Shown here: piece after piece, positions 35,229 through 40,275 of the stretch | Position numbering within the stretch: position 1 is the first letter of the stretch | Layout of the letters: every line of letters begins with the position of its first letter | Assembly (NCBI RefSeq): GCF_008704795.1 | Contig: NZ_CP023690.1 | Location: forward strand, 3,792,501 to 3,856,500 | Source: Streptomyces spectabilis | GTDB lineage: Bacteria > Actinomycetota > Actinomycetes > Streptomycetales > Streptomycetaceae | DNA: 64,000 bases | Reading direction: 5' to 3' | Made by a program: the position numbers and the translations under genes | Notes under the pieces: model-generated | Seen by the model: the letters and a program-made list of their open reading frames with translations, nothing else | Told to the model about the DNA's origin: nothing | Database searches by the model: none

Positions 35229-35319
35229 CCCGTATGAGGTCCGTACGAGGCCCGCGAGAGGCCGCCGCCACGTCCGCACCGCCCGCCGCGCCGACCCCTC
35301 CAGCACCCTTGATTTGAAC

Positions 35320-35338
35320 TTAGGTTAGGCTAACCTTA
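35320..35338 (+). promoter_or_regulatory. Iron box in the desA promoter
   Basis: TTAGGTTAGGCTAACCTTA matches the DmdR1/IdeR iron box; extended to 23 bases the palindrome holds at ten of eleven pairs. It lies just after a possible -35 box TTGAAC (35314-35319) and before a -10-like TAGTTC (35337-35342), the classical position for iron repression. Start of desA is 82 bases downstream. Confidence 0.9.
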
Positions 35339-35420
35339 GTTCGACGTCGCGCCCCGGATTCCTCCCCGCTGTGCCCTGCCCCGGGGCGCGACCCCCGTCC
35401 CCTCACCTGGAGGACCGTCC

Positions 35421-36863
35421 ATGCGCTCGCACCTGCTCAACGACACGACCACCGAGCGGTACCGCGCCTCCGTGACCGAAGGGGTCGAGCGCGTGGCCGC
35501 CACGGTCGCCGCCGCCTCCCGGCCCTTCACCGGCGTCCAGGCCGACGAGCTGTCCCCCCGCGTCGCCGCCGTCGACCTCGACGCCCCGCTGCACGACACC
35601 GTAGCCGCCCTCGACGAGCTCGAAGAGCTGTATCTGCGCGACGCGGTCCACTTCCACCACCCCCGCCACCTCGCGGGCGGCGACGGCCCCGTCGTCATCC
35701 CGGCCGTCCTCGGCGAGGCCGTGCTGTCCGCCGTGAACTCCTCGCTCGACACCTGGGACCGGTCCACGGGCGGCACCCTCATCGAGCGGCGCCTGATCGA
35801 CTGGGCGGCCGAGCGCGCCGGGCTCGGCCCCGCCGCCGACGGCGTGTTCACCTCCGGCGGCGACCAGGCCGACCTCCAGGCGCTGCTGCTCGCCCGCGAG
35901 GAGGCCGGGACGGACGACCCGCGCAGGCTGCGCGTCCTCACCTCCGCGGGCGCCCGCCCCGGCATCCGGAAGGCGGCGAAACTCCTCGGCCTCGGGCCGG
36001 ACGCCGTCATCGCCGTCCGCACCGACCGGGCGGGGCGCATGCAGACCGTGGCGCTCGTCCGCGAGCTGGAGCGCTGTGCGCGCGAGGGCCTGGTCCCGAT
36101 GGCCGTCGTCGCCTCGGCGGGCACCGCGGACTTCGGCTCGATCGACCCGCTGCCGCAGATCGCCGAGGTGTGCGCGCGCCACGGCGTCCGGCTGCACGTG
36201 GACGCCGCGCACGGCTGCGGACCGCTCGTCTCGCGCACCCGGCGGCACCTCCTCGACGGCATCGAGCGCGCCGACTCGGTGACGGTCGACTTCCACGCGT
36301 CCCTGTTCCAGCCGGCCGGCTGCGCCGCGCTCCTCGTCCGCGACGCGGCGACGCTGCGGCACGCCACGGACCTCACCGACCACCCGGAACCGCGCCGCGC
36401 CGCACAGGAGCGCGTCCCCGGCCAGGCCGGGAAATCCCTCCAGGGCACCCGCCGCTTCGACGCCCTGAAACTCTGGCTGACGCTGCGCGTCATGGGCGCG
36501 GACGCCGTCGGCGACCTCTTCGACGAGGTCTGCTCCACCGCCGCCCGCGGCTTCGACCTCATCGCCGCCGACCCGCGCTTCGACGTCGTCGCCGAACCCC
36601 AGCTCGCCACCCTCGTCTTCCGCTACATCCCGGCCGCGATCTGCTCCCCCGCCGACATCGACCGCGCCAACCTGTACGCCCGCAAGGCCCTGTTCGCCTC
36701 CGGTGACGCGGTGGTCGCGGGCGCGCGGGCGGGCGAGCGCCGCTATCTGAAGCTCGCCCTGCGCAACCCGGAGACCACGGCCGCCGATCTCGCCGCCGTG
36801 CTCGACCTGATCGCCGGTCACGCCGAGCAGTACCTGGGAGAGAGCCTTGACCGCGCCAGCTGA
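35421..36863 (+). CDS. desA: DesA homologue lacking the PLP lysine (probable pseudoenzyme)
   Basis: 480 residues, the full length of DesA lysine decarboxylase, with GGAGGA upstream. The fold is preserved (MRSHLLNDTT opening, HFHHPRHLAGGDGPVVIPAV, TRRFDALKLWLTLRVMGADA, ALFASGDAVVAGARAGERRY). The catalytic residues are not. Group II decarboxylases need D-x-H-K; here it is VDFHASLFQP, with Ala (GCG, codon 293) replacing the Schiff-base Lys. The cofactor-stacking His is Arg179 in TSAGARPGIRKAA. The phosphate loop SGGTQSN is SGGDQADL (144-152), and DAAYG is DAAHG. Asp261 remains. It cannot plausibly decarboxylate lysine to cadaverine. Frame, codon usage and coupling to desB are intact, so either it decayed recently or it is kept for a non-catalytic role. 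Confidence 0.9.
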   Translation: MRSHLLNDTTTERYRASVTEGVERVAATVAAASRPFTGVQADELSPRVAAVDLDAPLHDTVAALDELEELYLRDAVHFHHPRHLAGGDGPVVIPAVLGEAVLSAVNSSLDTWDRSTGGTLIERRLIDWAAERAGLGPAADGVFTSGGDQADLQALLLAREEAGTDDPRRLRVLTSAGARPGIRKAAKLLGLGPDAVIAVRTDRAGRMQTVALVRELERCAREGLVPMAVVASAGTADFGSIDPLPQIAEVCARHGVRLHVDAAHGCGPLVSRTRRHLLDGIERADSVTVDFHASLFQPAGCAALLVRDAATLRHATDLTDHPEPRRAAQERVPGQAGKSLQGTRRFDALKLWLTLRVMGADAVGDLFDEVCSTAARGFDLIAADPRFDVVAEPQLATLVFRYIPAAICSPADIDRANLYARKALFASGDAVVAGARAGERRYLKLALRNPETTAADLAAVLDLIAGHAEQYLGESLDRAS

Positions 36864-37920
36864 CCCCCGCGAGCCGTACGACGTCATCGGGATCGGCCTC
36901 GGCCCCGCCAACCTCGGCCTCGCCTGCCTCACCGAGCCCCTCGACGAGCTGACCGCCCTGTTCCTCACGCCGGGCCCCGACGCGTCCGACGTCGTCCGGC
37001 GCTCCGGGACGCCCCTGGAGGGCGCCCGCCCGCGGACGCCCTTCCTGTCCGACCTGGTGACGCTCGCCGACCCCACGTCGCGGTACTCCTTCCTCAACTT
37101 CCTGCAGGAGTCGGGCCGCCTGTACGCGTTCCACCGCCGCGAGAGCCTCTACCCGCTGCGCGCCGAGTACGACGCCTACTGCCGCTGGGCCGCCGCCCGC
37201 CTCACGTCCGTGCGCTTCGGCACGACCGTGACGCGGGTGACGTACGAGAACGACGTGTACGCCGTCGCCACCTCCGTGGGCGACGTCCTGCGCGCCCGGC
37301 ACCTCGCCCTCGACACAGGCAGCACGCCGTACGTGCCCGATGCCTGCGCGAAGCTCGGCGGCGACTTCGTCCACGCCTCGCGCTACCCGGAGCAGAAGGC
37401 GGAGCTCCAGAAGAAGAACCAGATCACGGTCGTCGGCGACGGGCGGGGCGCGGCGGAGGTCTACTACGACCTCCTCACGGACATGGACGTCCACGGCTAC
37501 CGGCTCGACTGGGTCACCGAAGCCCCGCGCCTGCTGCCGCCCGAGCACACCGGGCTGCTCGACGCGATCCTCGACCTGCTGCACCAGAAGGGCCTGGAAG
37601 GGCCCGTCCCCTCGCGCCTGCTCACCCGCTCCACCCTCACCAGGGCCCGCTACGAGCACGGCACGTACACCCTCGGCCTGCGCCACCGGGAGCGGGGCGA
37701 GGACGTCACGCTCACCACCGAGGGCCTGGTCCTCGCCACCGGCCACCGGTACCGGACGCCGGACTTCCTGGAGCCCGTGCGCGAGCGCGTCCGCTGGGAC
37801 GCGCACGGCTCGGACCCGGGCACGGCCCCGTACCGCAACGCGTCCATCATCCGTGAGCTGCTCGGCCGCGAGGTCCACCCCGCCGATGAGCCCACCGCGT
37901 TCCAGGAGTTCGCCGTATGA
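36847..37920 (+). CDS. desB: DesB homologue with in-frame deletions (probably inactive N-hydroxylase)
   Basis: 357 residues against about 420 for DesB, the FAD/NADPH cadaverine N-monooxygenase. TTG start with GGGAGAGAG upstream; overlaps desA by 17 bases. The FAD turn YDVIGIGLGPANLGLACLTE survives, as does PTSRYSFLNFL. The WHxGM segment is absent (PGPDASDVVRRSGTPLEG), LQTPF is PRTPF, and the NADPH motif GSGQSAAE is VVGDGRGAAEVYYDLL. About 45 residues are missing between LLPPEHT and GLLDAILDLLHQK, where the TLEMTSPEY substrate region belongs. About 35 are missing before APYRNASIIRELLG, removing the NAxxHTHG/PDLGMG region. ATGY is ATGH. Catalysis is very unlikely. Confidence 0.88.
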   Translation: MTAPADPREPYDVIGIGLGPANLGLACLTEPLDELTALFLTPGPDASDVVRRSGTPLEGARPRTPFLSDLVTLADPTSRYSFLNFLQESGRLYAFHRRESLYPLRAEYDAYCRWAAARLTSVRFGTTVTRVTYENDVYAVATSVGDVLRARHLALDTGSTPYVPDACAKLGGDFVHASRYPEQKAELQKKNQITVVGDGRGAAEVYYDLLTDMDVHGYRLDWVTEAPRLLPPEHTGLLDAILDLLHQKGLEGPVPSRLLTRSTLTRARYEHGTYTLGLRHRERGEDVTLTTEGLVLATGHRYRTPDFLEPVRERVRWDAHGSDPGTAPYRNASIIRELLGREVHPADEPTAFQEFAV

Positions 37921-38498
37921 GTACCTTCGGAACCCTCACGCTGCGTCCGCTCGACCCGTTCACGGACGCCCAGTTGATCCACCCCTGGATGACGCACCCC
38001 CGGTCCGTGTTCTGGCCGCTGTGGGGCGCGCGGCTCCACGAGGTCGAGCGCGCGTACATGCACGTCGCGGCCGAGGAGCACCACGACGCGTTCGTCGGTC
38101 TGCGCGACGGCGAGCCCGCGTTCCTGGTGGAGCGCTACGACCCGCGCCACGTCGAACTCGCCGACGCCCACGAGCCCGAGCCCGGCGACGTCGGCCTGCG
38201 CTTCCTGGTCGCGCCGGGCGCGGACCACGTCGAGGGCTTCGGCCAGGCGGCGCTGACCACGGTCCTGGAGCACCTCTTCGCGGACCCCCGGACGGCGCGG
38301 GTCGTGGTCGCGACCGACGTCGCCGACCACGCCGCGCAGGAGCTCCACGAGGTCGCGGGCTTCGTGCCCGGGTGCGAGGCCGACGGGCCGGAGGGACGGG
38401 TCCTGCTCTGCTTCTGCACCCGCGAGCGGTTCGACGCGGCCGTCGTCCGCCGGGCCGTGGCCGCCCGGCCCGCCCTGACGGCGGGAGCACCGGTATGA
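37917..38498 (+). CDS. desC: DesC homologue with altered acyl-CoA motif
   Basis: 193 residues, near normal length for DesC, a GNAT-fold acyltransferase that acetylates or succinylates N-hydroxycadaverine. It starts at ATG overlapping the desB stop (ATGA). The framework is visible: LTLRPLDPFTDAQLIHPWMT, VERAYMHVAAEEHHDAFVGL, GEPAFLVERYDPRHVELADA and VEGFGQAALTTVLEHLFADP. The strand that normally reads RVVVEPDVRN is RVVVATDVAD here, and PEKxAxL is PEGRVLL, so the most conserved acyl-CoA/substrate motif of the IucB/AlcB/DesC group is gone. The C-terminal FCTRERF is kept. Activity is doubtful; it could equally be a changed specificity. Confidence 0.82.
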   Translation: MSTFGTLTLRPLDPFTDAQLIHPWMTHPRSVFWPLWGARLHEVERAYMHVAAEEHHDAFVGLRDGEPAFLVERYDPRHVELADAHEPEPGDVGLRFLVAPGADHVEGFGQAALTTVLEHLFADPRTARVVVATDVADHAAQELHEVAGFVPGCEADGPEGRVLLCFCTRERFDAAVVRRAVAARPALTAGAPV

Positions 38499-38518
38499 GC
38501 GCGGCCCCGCGCCCCTGA
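38495..38518 (+). pseudogene. desD: Remnant start of desD (7 codons)
   Basis: An ATG overlapping the desC stop by four bases (ATGA) begins MSAAPRP and stops at TGA (38516-38518). In intact des clusters this is where desD starts, a gene of about 1.8 kb for the NIS synthetase that condenses and macrocyclises the hydroxamate units. Nothing else resembling it lies before the terminator at 38527 or in any frame up to the GH20 gene. The retained coupled start suggests an internal deletion of desD. Confidence 0.75.
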
Positions 38519-38526
38519 AGACCGGG

Positions 38527-38559
38527 CGGGGCTCCGGAGTACGGTCCTCCGGAGCCCCG
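38527..38559. terminator. Bidirectional terminator between the des operon and GH20
   Basis: CGGGGCTCCGGAG (38527-38539) and CTCCGGAGCCCCG (38547-38559) form a perfect 13-bp stem with a seven-base loop. It lies eight bases after the desD remnant stop and serves both convergent units. Confidence 0.88.
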
Positions 38560-38585: not shown

Positions 38586-40196
38586 TCACCGCGCGGGCCA
38601 GGGCACCTGCGGTGACCTGAAGTAGCCGATGCCGAGGGCGTCCCAGCGCGGGGCCTGCTCCGCGAGCCGCGCCCGGTACGGCTCCCAGCCGTGGCTCGCG
38701 GCGGGCGACCACCCCAGCTCGGCGATGCCGGGCAGGCGCGGGAACGCCATGTAGTCGAGGTGGGCGGGCGTCGACAGGGTCTCCGTCCACAGCGGCGCCT
38801 CGACACCGAGGACCGCGTCGGCCGGAGCGCCCGGCAGATACGTGCCCGGGTCCCAGTCGTAGGCCCGCCGCACGTCCACGTACCCGGCCCACTTCAGGCC
38901 GAGCGGGGTGTCCTTGTCGTACTTGTGGTCGAGATAGGACCGGTCGGCGGGCGAGAGCACGAGCGCGGTGCCGTTCCGCGCCGCCCGCACGACCTGGTCG
39001 CGCTCGGCCTGCCCGGTGCGGTCGTAGCCCCAGTACTGGGCGACGGCGCCCGGCACCGGCTTCGCCGCGGTCAGCTGGTGCCAGCCGAGCACGGTCTTGC
39101 CGTACTTGGTGACGATCGGCTGGACCTTCTCCATGAACGCCACGAAGTCCTCGGGGCTCGTGGAGTGCGCCTCGTCGCCCCCGATGTGGAGGTAGCGGCC
39201 GGGGGTGAGCGCGGCGAGCTCGCGGATCACGTCGTCCACGAAGTCGTACGTGACGTCCTTCTTCACGCACAGCGAGCTGAAGCCGACCTCCGTGCCCGTG
39301 TACAGGGGCGGTGCCACGCCGTCGCAGTTCAGCTCTGCGTAGGAGGCGAGCGCGGCGTTCGTGTGGCTGGGCATGTCGATCTCGGGGATCACTTCGAGGC
39401 CCCGCGAGGCCGCGTAGGAGACGATCTCCCGGTACTGCTCCTTGGTGTAGTGGCCGCCGGGGCCGCCGCCGACCTGTGTGGAGCCGCCGTACGTGGCCAG
39501 GCGGGGCCAGGAGTCGACGGCGATGCGCCAGCCCTGGTCGTCGCTCAGGTGCAGATGCAGCGTGTTCATCTTGTAGAGCGCCAACTGGTCGACGTAGCGC
39601 TTGACTTGGTCCACGGGGAAGAAGTGGCGGGCCACGTCCAGCATGGCCCCGCGGTAGGCGTAGCGCGGGGCGTCCTCGATGGTGCCGCCCGCGATCCGCC
39701 ACGGGCCGTGCTGCCGCGACGTCCGCTCGACGGCTGCGGGCAGCTGCTGGCGCACCGTCTGGACGCCGTGGAAGAGGCCGGTTCCCGACCAGGAGGTGAG
39801 GGTGAGGGAGCGGCGCTCGGAGACCAGCCGGTAGCCCTCGCCGCCGAGGGCCTTCTCGGCGCTCCCGGTGCTGACGCGCAGCCGGATGCCGTCGCCGCCC
39901 GGGCGGTCGGTCACGGGCAGCCGGAAGCCGGTGGCGGGGCGGAGCAGCCGCGCGAGGTACTCGCCGACGCGCCGCTCCTCGGGGCGGGGGCCGACCCGGA
40001 TGCGGGTCTTGGCGGTGATCTCGTAACCGGGCCCGGACGCCTCGGCCTTCAGGGGCGCGGGGATGATCCGGCCGAGCGGGGTGGGCGCGGGCAGAGGCTC
40101 GCTCCCGCCGCCCGGCGCGGCGGCCGCGGTCGAGAGGCCGGCGGCGATGAGGAGCAGTGCACCGATGACACGTGTCGGTCTGTGGTCCTTTCTCAC
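38586..40196 (-). CDS. Secreted beta-N-acetylhexosaminidase, GH20
   Basis: 536 residues from the GTG at 40196, which has AAGGGA upstream. A signal peptide (RVIGALLLIAAGLSTAAAAP) is followed by a GH20b domain (residues ~45-160) and the catalytic barrel: GAMLDVARHFFPVDQVKRYV, HLHLSDDQGWRI, VIPEIDMPSHTNAALASYAE, and the catalytic pair in YLHIGGDEAHST. The C-terminal VLGVEAPLWTETL closes the pocket. It uses substrate-assisted hydrolysis to release GlcNAc from chitooligosaccharides outside the cell. This gene follows desD in other Streptomyces, confirming what is missing here. A DasR-like site lies upstream at 40276-40291. Confidence 0.93.
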   Translation of the reverse strand: MRKDHRPTRVIGALLLIAAGLSTAAAAPGGGSEPLPAPTPLGRIIPAPLKAEASGPGYEITAKTRIRVGPRPEERRVGEYLARLLRPATGFRLPVTDRPGGDGIRLRVSTGSAEKALGGEGYRLVSERRSLTLTSWSGTGLFHGVQTVRQQLPAAVERTSRQHGPWRIAGGTIEDAPRYAYRGAMLDVARHFFPVDQVKRYVDQLALYKMNTLHLHLSDDQGWRIAVDSWPRLATYGGSTQVGGGPGGHYTKEQYREIVSYAASRGLEVIPEIDMPSHTNAALASYAELNCDGVAPPLYTGTEVGFSSLCVKKDVTYDFVDDVIRELAALTPGRYLHIGGDEAHSTSPEDFVAFMEKVQPIVTKYGKTVLGWHQLTAAKPVPGAVAQYWGYDRTGQAERDQVVRAARNGTALVLSPADRSYLDHKYDKDTPLGLKWAGYVDVRRAYDWDPGTYLPGAPADAVLGVEAPLWTETLSTPAHLDYMAFPRLPGIAELGWSPAASHGWEPYRARLAEQAPRWDALGIGYFRSPQVPWPAR

Positions 40197-40275
40197 AAGC
40201 GGGTCCCTTCGACGGGCAACGCGGATGTGACGTGGTCGAACCGTCACCATGCGTACCGCGCACCCCAGGCCGGGT

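Follow-up and report, generated by a model that had tools for sequence, protein, structure and literature searches.

Can an operon whose enzymes have been stripped of their catalytic residues still be maintained by selection? The question is raised by the desferrioxamine (des) locus of Streptomyces spectabilis, which lies in a 64-kb stretch of DNA that was analysed here as a whole (the window; 3.79-3.86 Mb on a single 9.8-Mb contig). The order of the genes, with an acyl-CoA dehydrogenase gene followed by desE, an iron box, desA, desB, desC and a convergent hexosaminidase gene, is identical to that in S. aureoverticillatus, S. aurantiacus and S. aureocirculatus, all three of which carry full-length desABCD, and in functional relatives the glycoside hydrolase family 20 (GH20) hexosaminidase sits behind desD. 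This is the native des locus, in the same place and with the same iron box and neighbours as the Streptomyces desABCD operon. Unlike the functional operons, however, it has a desD of only seven codons, a desB that has been cut twice, and desA and desC genes in which catalytic residues have been replaced. An earlier reading, made from the sequence only, had described desA, desB and desC as full frames with overlaps of 17, 4 and 4 nt under an iron box, had found conserved active-site features gone from all three with frames and joints retained, and had called desD essentially absent. The coordinates of the open reading frames (ORFs) agree with the first of these statements, the comparison with homologues bears out the second, and nothing but the relic is present where desD should begin.

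As judged from these genes, the locus is not expected to make desferrioxamine. We consider it probable, on balance, that the locus is still under selection for the expression, during iron starvation, of full-length but non-catalytic DesA and DesC proteins.

Loss of catalytic residues

The DesA proteins of what we call the dead clade are 84-93% identical to each other and 77-78% identical to those of functional neighbours, and the flanking genes are the same, which establishes orthology and synteny. Position 293, the pyridoxal phosphate (PLP)-binding lysine of the HK motif, is Ala in the window. Among the best 120 of 4143 matches to DesA, 118 have Lys at this position, and the two homologues without it are the protein of this very cluster and that of Streptomyces sp. 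AN091965. Within the 30 DesA loci that were fetched, Lys293 is kept in 28 and replaced by Ala in the window and in Streptomyces sp. YIM 121038 (G351). Further substitutions (S150A, N151D, H179R, T236A, Y317D and others) have altered the phosphate site, the PLP-stacking His, the second Thr of AGTTDFG, the Tyr of DAAYG and the catalytic-loop tyrosines; the roles of the phosphate site, stacking His and catalytic loop are those that we presume from group II decarboxylases.

The claim that damage is concentrated in catalytic motifs holds for DesA. Of the family-invariant sites, 15 of 41 have changed in active-site intervals as against 27 of 259 elsewhere (p = 7e-5), a result obtained with strict intervals that are narrower and canonical for the family, but were defined after viewing, as were, in part, the first, wider ones, picked when the changes were known; with the strict intervals the enrichment is weaker and still significant. 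The functional DesA set for the motif comparison comprised 113 proteins, left after two dead and five S. lasiicapitis-like proteins (P0004, P0005, P0008, P0009 and P0013) had been dropped, and for site-class tests three more of other length were dropped, leaving 110.

DesB has lost 39 and 31 codons in deletions that span the KLT...SPEY and NSAVHTHALTSP segments, and its FEWH and GSGQSAAE motifs are gone (FEWH and GSGQSA are replaced). We take these segments and motifs to serve in the binding of substrate, flavin adenine dinucleotide (FAD) and nicotinamide adenine dinucleotide phosphate (NADPH); the combination of FAD motif, NADPH motif and substrate segment that marks a cadaverine N-hydroxylase is not found in the window protein. 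At the catalytic position of DesC, the His of GDVGxH, to which we assign its role by analogy with related GNAT enzymes, 113 of 120 listed homologues have His, five have Arg (the window's own cluster included) and one has Asn, the remaining one being unmatched by the pattern used. The window protein has Arg here, and His is retained in strain NRRL B-1347 and in YIM 121038. A DesC homologue of Streptomyces sp. G45 (P0256) also carries Arg at the catalytic His.

No match to intact DesD was found within the window (tblastn, E up to 1), and the relic cannot stand for the nonribosomal-peptide-synthetase-independent siderophore (NIS) synthetase of the desABCD pathway. Elsewhere in the genome the search was equally negative: no second full desABCD or desD was found in the whole genome, the DesA-like proteins that come next share 40% and 34% identity, and IucA/IucC is matched by just two proteins, both of them in a separate cluster at 6.97 Mb.

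Age and repeated origin of the remnant

Strain NRRL B-1347 (DesA 93% identical) has the same dead desA, the same shortened desB and no desD, and because this is an independent assembly, misassembly of the locus is unlikely. YIM 121038 has the dead desA in common with the window and only a 16-codon remnant of desB, and Streptomyces sp. AN091965, for which we have the protein only, shows the same DesA change. Since the replacement of Lys by Ala is common to at least four taxa (the window, NRRL B-1347, YIM 121038 and AN091965), the dead state is not recent, and the sequence-only reading's suggestion of a recent set of losses does not hold.

A DesD match better than 1e-200 is missing in 76 of 392 genomes of the genus. 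Seven of the 76 keep a DesA match better than 1e-140 (the window's genome, G351, G019, G163, G213, G289 and G224), and the first five of these are also without a DesB match better than 1e-140. These counts, like that of 69 genomes given below, were read by eye from match tables with E-value limits of our own, and the status of the lysine is known for the fetched loci, a subset of the 392 genomes. A scan of genome contigs showed desA and desC in S. lasiicapitis and S. silaceus, with no match to desB or desD. G213, which is S. longispororuber by its DesC sequence, keeps desA and desC without desB or intact desD, and G019 retains a desD fragment of 28% identity. The DesA lysine is kept in S. lasiicapitis, S. 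silaceus and G019. A search for relatives over 395 genomes gave matches only in genomes already recorded.

A species tree built from desE, the hexosaminidase and the acyl-CoA dehydrogenase places G213 as the sister of the dead clade, S. lasiicapitis close to S. aurantiacus, and both G163 and S. silaceus close to S. alboniger; the mis-cut hexosaminidase of S. aureocirculatus was left out of its codon model, and a 13-codon piece of it stayed in the tree alignment. The desA and desC trees join G163 with S. silaceus, whereas the species tree does not, and because of this disagreement the two count as one event or as two. G019 is separate on the gene trees, and the species tree was built without it. 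On this count, four to five apparently independent origins of the DesA-DesC remnant in the genus are the minimum.

The in-frame remnant is nevertheless the exception. In 69 of the 392 genomes both DesD and DesA lack a match of orthologue strength, and 40 of these carry the hexosaminidase at E up to 1e-120. We read 20 of those 40 loci and found the acyl-CoA dehydrogenase in all 20, a desE homologue in 13 and no trace of desA to desD in any (tblastn, E up to 1e-3). Clean excision is thus the usual outcome at the loci read.

Some loci differ from both patterns. G289 (L066) has full-length desA and desB and no full DesD, with a second A/B/C/D-like set directly behind. The desD of G224 (L067) and the desB of G063 (L068) each match in two or more pieces. 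In an S. lasiicapitis strain with a contig of 29,372 bases (P0013, P0253), DesA finishes with EFAV, as DesB does, and the catalytic His of DesC is replaced by Asn; this is probably a deletion allele different from the other S. lasiicapitis locus (L050).

Reading frames, promoter and leader

Open frames, in the sense of missing stop codons, mean little at this content of guanine and cytosine (GC). For the pair formed by the window and NRRL B-1347, GC-rich mutation spectra lead one to expect only 0.2 to 1.6 stops per gene, and an argument from the absence of stops to selection was rejected. Insertions and deletions (indels) were compared in nucleotide alignments, which are the real test, indels in protein alignments being multiples of three by construction. 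Between the window and NRRL B-1347, desABC differ by 207 substitutions and one indel (9 nt) in 3078 nt, whereas the leader and two spacers (336 nt) differ by 45 substitutions and five indels (four of 1 nt and one of 21 nt). The contrast is significant (Fisher p = 5e-5; for non-triplet indels alone, 0 versus 4, p = 9e-5), and as a control it is strong but not perfect, since spacers may be more indel-prone than genes. Between the window and G351, desA shows 140 substitutions and no indel, and desC 70 substitutions with indels of 18 and 3 nt.

The other remnants follow the same pattern. Compared with a functional relative, desA has indels of 36 and 18 nt in S. silaceus, of 3, 54 and 3 nt in G163, of 6 nt in G019 and none in S. 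lasiicapitis; compared with the window, it has indels of 3, 24, 3 and 6 nt in G213 and none in G351. All 10 indels of remnant desA, and all four found in desC when the dead clade and G213 were compared, have lengths divisible by three at the nucleotide level, and no frameshift was found in any remnant desA, desB or desC read. In the aligned proteins of S. silaceus, G163 and G213, window residue 317, the tyrosine of the catalytic loop, falls within a gap.

Six loci without desB were read, and every one of them still has the TTG start codon of desB, in frame and in its 17-nt overlap with the end of desA. From this codon the frame continues directly into desC in G213, S. lasiicapitis, S. silaceus, G163 and G019; in G351 it closes after 16 codons at the ATGA that it shares with desC. 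If each random deletion has one chance in three of being in frame, the probability that all of them are is about 0.004 for five independent events, and drops to about 0.0005 when the two desB deletions of the window's clade are included, the events entering this estimate having been chosen by us. The indel pattern supports the view, put forward in the sequence-only reading, that selection has acted on the reading frames.

The promoter is conserved as well. Iron box and leader differ from those of the window at 1 of 106 sites in NRRL B-1347 (plus a 1-nt indel) and at 3 of 107 in G351, compared with 37 of 142 and 60 of 142 sites in the spacer just upstream; at third codon positions of desA the numbers are 41 of 480 and 61 of 480, and the leader is lower (p = 0.002 and 0.0009). 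In functional pairs, the leader of S. aurantiacus differs from that of S. aureoverticillatus at six sites and from that of S. aureocirculatus at seven, and the dead-clade leader is at least as conserved, although distances are not exactly matched. The consensus fold of the leader (35314-35420) from nine relatives shows a GC stem of 10 bp and, in addition, a short one in which a GTCCCC/GGAGGAC pairing would cover the ribosome-binding site. Two pairs of the 10-bp stem and one pair of the iron-box palindrome have changed on both sides.

Missense constraint

Computed per gene, as the sequence-only reading had proposed, the ratio of nonsynonymous to synonymous change (dN/dS) shows constraint most clearly in desA; in desB and desC it is weak or undetectable, according to the mutation model. 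Each ratio comes from counts of changes set against an explicit mutation spectrum. For the pair formed by the window and NRRL B-1347, desA has a dN/dS of 0.37-0.65 under five spectra and of 0.21-0.29 under four GC-rich ones, below 1 with p values from 7e-11 to 0.04 over the nine mutation models; functional desA pairs give 0.05-0.45. For the same pair, desB yields 0.83-1.59 (five spectra) or 0.44-0.64 (GC-rich) and desC 0.52-0.91 or 0.29-0.41, both genes being below 1 under the four GC-rich models (p 0.045 or less). Missense constraint is therefore relaxed throughout and detectable in desA. Within the invariant sites of the four dead DesA proteins, later changes are commoner in the strict active-site intervals (14 of 41) than elsewhere (46 of 259; p = 0.02).

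Estimates from an F3x4 codon model on the dead branches (desA 0.13, desB 0.24, desC 0.24) were not relied on. They are probably biased at 96% GC at third codon positions, since raw codon-position differences and the explicit spectra give higher, model-dependent values. G019 was left out of the codon models.

Selection or decay

The idea that selection maintains non-catalytic proteins, one of those offered by the sequence-only reading, stands in part: the indels, the leader, the constraint on desA and the GC-rich models speak for it, but desB and desC are indistinguishable from neutral under uniform and AT-leaning models. A need of coupling for downstream regulation, proposed in the same place, finds no support, as desC is followed only by the relic and then by a gene of opposite orientation.

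Several observations weigh against continued selection. Under uniform or AT-leaning spectra, desB (0.94-1.59) and desC (0.56-0.91) do not differ from 1, and between the window and G351 the desA ratio is 0.58-1.02, or 0.33-0.46 with GC-rich spectra. Later changes among the four dead DesA proteins fall on 60 of 300 family-invariant and 42 of 180 family-variable sites, and because both classes are hit alike, the protein is no longer constrained as an enzyme. The first two codon positions have become richer in GC, as relaxed selection predicts. The predicted fold of the DesB remnant, with a mean predicted local distance difference test score (pLDDT) of 66 and a predicted template modelling score (pTM) of 0.58 from 10 sequences, is too weak to judge folding, and its pLDDT is lowest at residues 43-74 and the C-terminal end. 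Because the remnants were found through strong DesA matches, a frame-broken desA would be under-detected, and the fragmented desD of G224 and desB of G063 may be broken des frames if these drafts are sound. Finally, 69 of the 392 genomes lack orthologue-strength DesD and DesA alike, so strains that have lost DesD can live without the remnant too.

Slow reductive decay would make the locus a set of pseudogenes in a ferrioxamine scavenger, on its way to clean deletion, with frames left open by GC richness and few fixed indels. The near-neutral desB and desC under several mutation models, the rise in GC at the first two codon positions, the small number of expected stops and the 69 genomes without orthologue-strength DesA and DesD, with 13 desE homologues and no desA-desD trace at the 20 such loci read, all fit this explanation, which we still think rather unlikely. 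It leaves unexplained why no frameshift occurs in the remnant genes when the spacers have taken up non-triplet indels, why iron box and leader are conserved, why the dN/dS of desA is below 1 between the window and NRRL B-1347, and why the remnant persists across several species, desB having been shortened or removed in frame in a minimum of four to five lineages. Decay alone accounts for the way in which desB and desC have changed by missense substitution; it does not account for the indels or the leader, and we therefore prefer selection.

A variant that would explain in-frame indels as well as near-neutral missense change in desB and desC supposes that the proteins are functionless and that broken frames in an induced, coupled message are dangerous, so that only in-frame losses survive until the operon is deleted. 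We regard this as improbable: misfolded missense products should be equally harmful, promoter mutations would bring simpler relief and yet the promoter is conserved, and desA is more constrained than desB within the same predicted message. A different catalytic activity, carried out by the proteins with their altered active sites, is hardly credible, even with the DesC His kept in NRRL B-1347 and G351 and the DesA Lys in S. lasiicapitis, S. silaceus and G019, given that window DesA lacks the PLP lysine and has changes at the phosphate site, the stacking His and the catalytic loop, and that DesB is without segments that we assign to substrate and FAD binding, all these roles being presumed ones.

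If selection for non-catalytic DesA and DesC has indeed shaped the locus, a common ancestor would have stopped producing desferrioxamine and lived on ferrioxamines from its neighbours, which it would have taken up by way of the DesE that it kept. Stripped of its PLP-site residues, the decarboxylase fold would have been kept as an iron-regulated binding or scaffold protein, a pseudoenzyme co-translated with the DesC fold. DesB and DesD, a hydroxylase and a synthetase of no further use and perhaps a burden, would have been cut out. The role predicted for this pseudo-DesA is in protein-protein contacts and not in chemistry. We offer only tentatively, and with some doubt, the wider proposal that Streptomyces repeatedly convert the des operon into an iron-regulated, coupled, non-catalytic DesA-DesC module, desB and desD being taken out in frame and the active sites lost, and that pseudo-DesA may be newly recruited, perhaps for sensing or handling iron stress in users of ferrioxamine.

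Relation to known systems

Pseudoenzymes are homologues of enzymes that have lost catalytic residues, and the window proteins are likewise enzyme homologues minus such residues. They differ from this concept in that several enzymes of one operon are dead together and that this recurs in separate lineages; a function is putative here. By sequence, the solved structures nearest to functional DesA, DesB and DesC are 5o5c (DfoJ), 6xbb (DesB, S. sviceus) and 5o7o (DfoC), matched with functional relatives as queries, whereas the window proteins are without the motifs. We presume that 6xbb belongs to the paper on S. sviceus DesB. The organism is as named in the available part of that paper (PMC8009421).

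The locus also resembles siderophore cheating or piracy, as the available part of PMC13061897 presents it, in that biosynthesis is lost and a DesE-type binding protein is kept, uptake being predicted here. The Streptomyces described there transcribes desABCD with production of desferrioxamine (DFO) undetected and pirates DFO-B. In strain A of that study the des cluster is conserved and transcribed, whereas in the window the genes are stripped and yet in frame. Siderophore cheating is usually scored as presence or absence of genes, and here the genes are present and the product is not expected. Genome mining with a rule that leaves desD out would pick up the locus, because the products of desA, desB and desC all still match their Pfam families; a four-gene rule, as in the available part of PMC12161575, which treats the DmdR1 regulon and desJGH, would not. 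No dead or in-frame remnant des operon was found in the titles and abstract openings of the papers listed by full-text searches of the open literature, and the portion of PMC8618203 at hand holds nothing on des genes of S. spectabilis. Repeated in-frame conversion to a dead DesA-DesC pair, if true, would be a natural experiment on the death or reuse of an operon, and named organisms carrying the remnant (S. spectabilis, NRRL B-1347, S. longispororuber and S. lasiicapitis) offer themselves for testing.

Features of the locus and other siderophore genes

The features of the locus are collected in Table 1. Among the matches listed, the closest named ones come from S. spectabilis (DesB 97%, DesC 92%). 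The desE-like protein is 91% identical to the window's in G351 and 93% in NRRL B-1347; its specificity for ferrioxamine is an assumption that we take from the name DesE, and we likewise assume the iron box to be a DmdR1-type palindrome. The available part of PMC12161575 uses the name DmdR1-type iron box in the same way.

Table 1. Features of the des locus, in positions of the 64-kb window
Feature	Position	Strand	Basis
desE-like siderophore-binding lipoprotein, intact frame, 346 aa	34131..35171	+	Pfam Peripla_BP_2
Iron box TTAGGTTAGGCTAACCTTA, DmdR1-type palindrome (assumed)	35320..35338	+	sequence; core same in G351, NRRL B-1347, G213
Leader stem-loop between iron box and desA, 10-bp GC stem 35346-35355 / 35383-35392	35346..35392	+	consensus fold, 9 leaders
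desA, PLP-decarboxylase homologue, 480 aa, predicted catalytically dead	35421..36863	+	sequence, Pfam, homologue alignment
Ala293 codon replacing PLP lysine	36297..36299	+	homologue comparison
desB remnant, 357 aa, TTG start, overlaps desA by 17 nt	36847..37920	+	ORF, alignment
desB in-frame deletions	~37551/37552 (39 codons), ~37812/37813 (31 codons)	+	alignment
desC, GNAT acyltransferase homologue, 193 aa, overlaps desB by 4 nt	37917..38498	+	ORF, Pfam
DesC Arg95 codon replacing catalytic His	38199-38201	+	homologue comparison
desD relic, 7-codon ORF MSAAPRP, 4-nt overlap with desC stop	38495..38518	+	sequence
GC-rich inverted repeat, terminator-like, between desC and convergent hexosaminidase	38528..38558	.	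sequence
Beta-N-acetylhexosaminidase homologue (GH20), syntenic boundary of des locus	38586..40250	-	Pfam

Two other regions of the same genome contain related genes. At 6.955-6.975 Mb (L043) there is another NIS siderophore cluster with two IucA/IucC synthetases and a GNAT protein, adjoining an aminotransferase-like protein, and this cluster is a possible source of the strain's own siderophore. At about 2.73 Mb (L044:5832-8662, minus strand) a second PLP decarboxylase, 40% identical to DesA and with the Lys present in DLHKLGW, lies next to an N-hydroxylase that is 30% identical to DesB, and no gene for an IucA/IucC synthetase is nearby. DesA-like matches, of 42% and 41%, also occur in G351 and G019.

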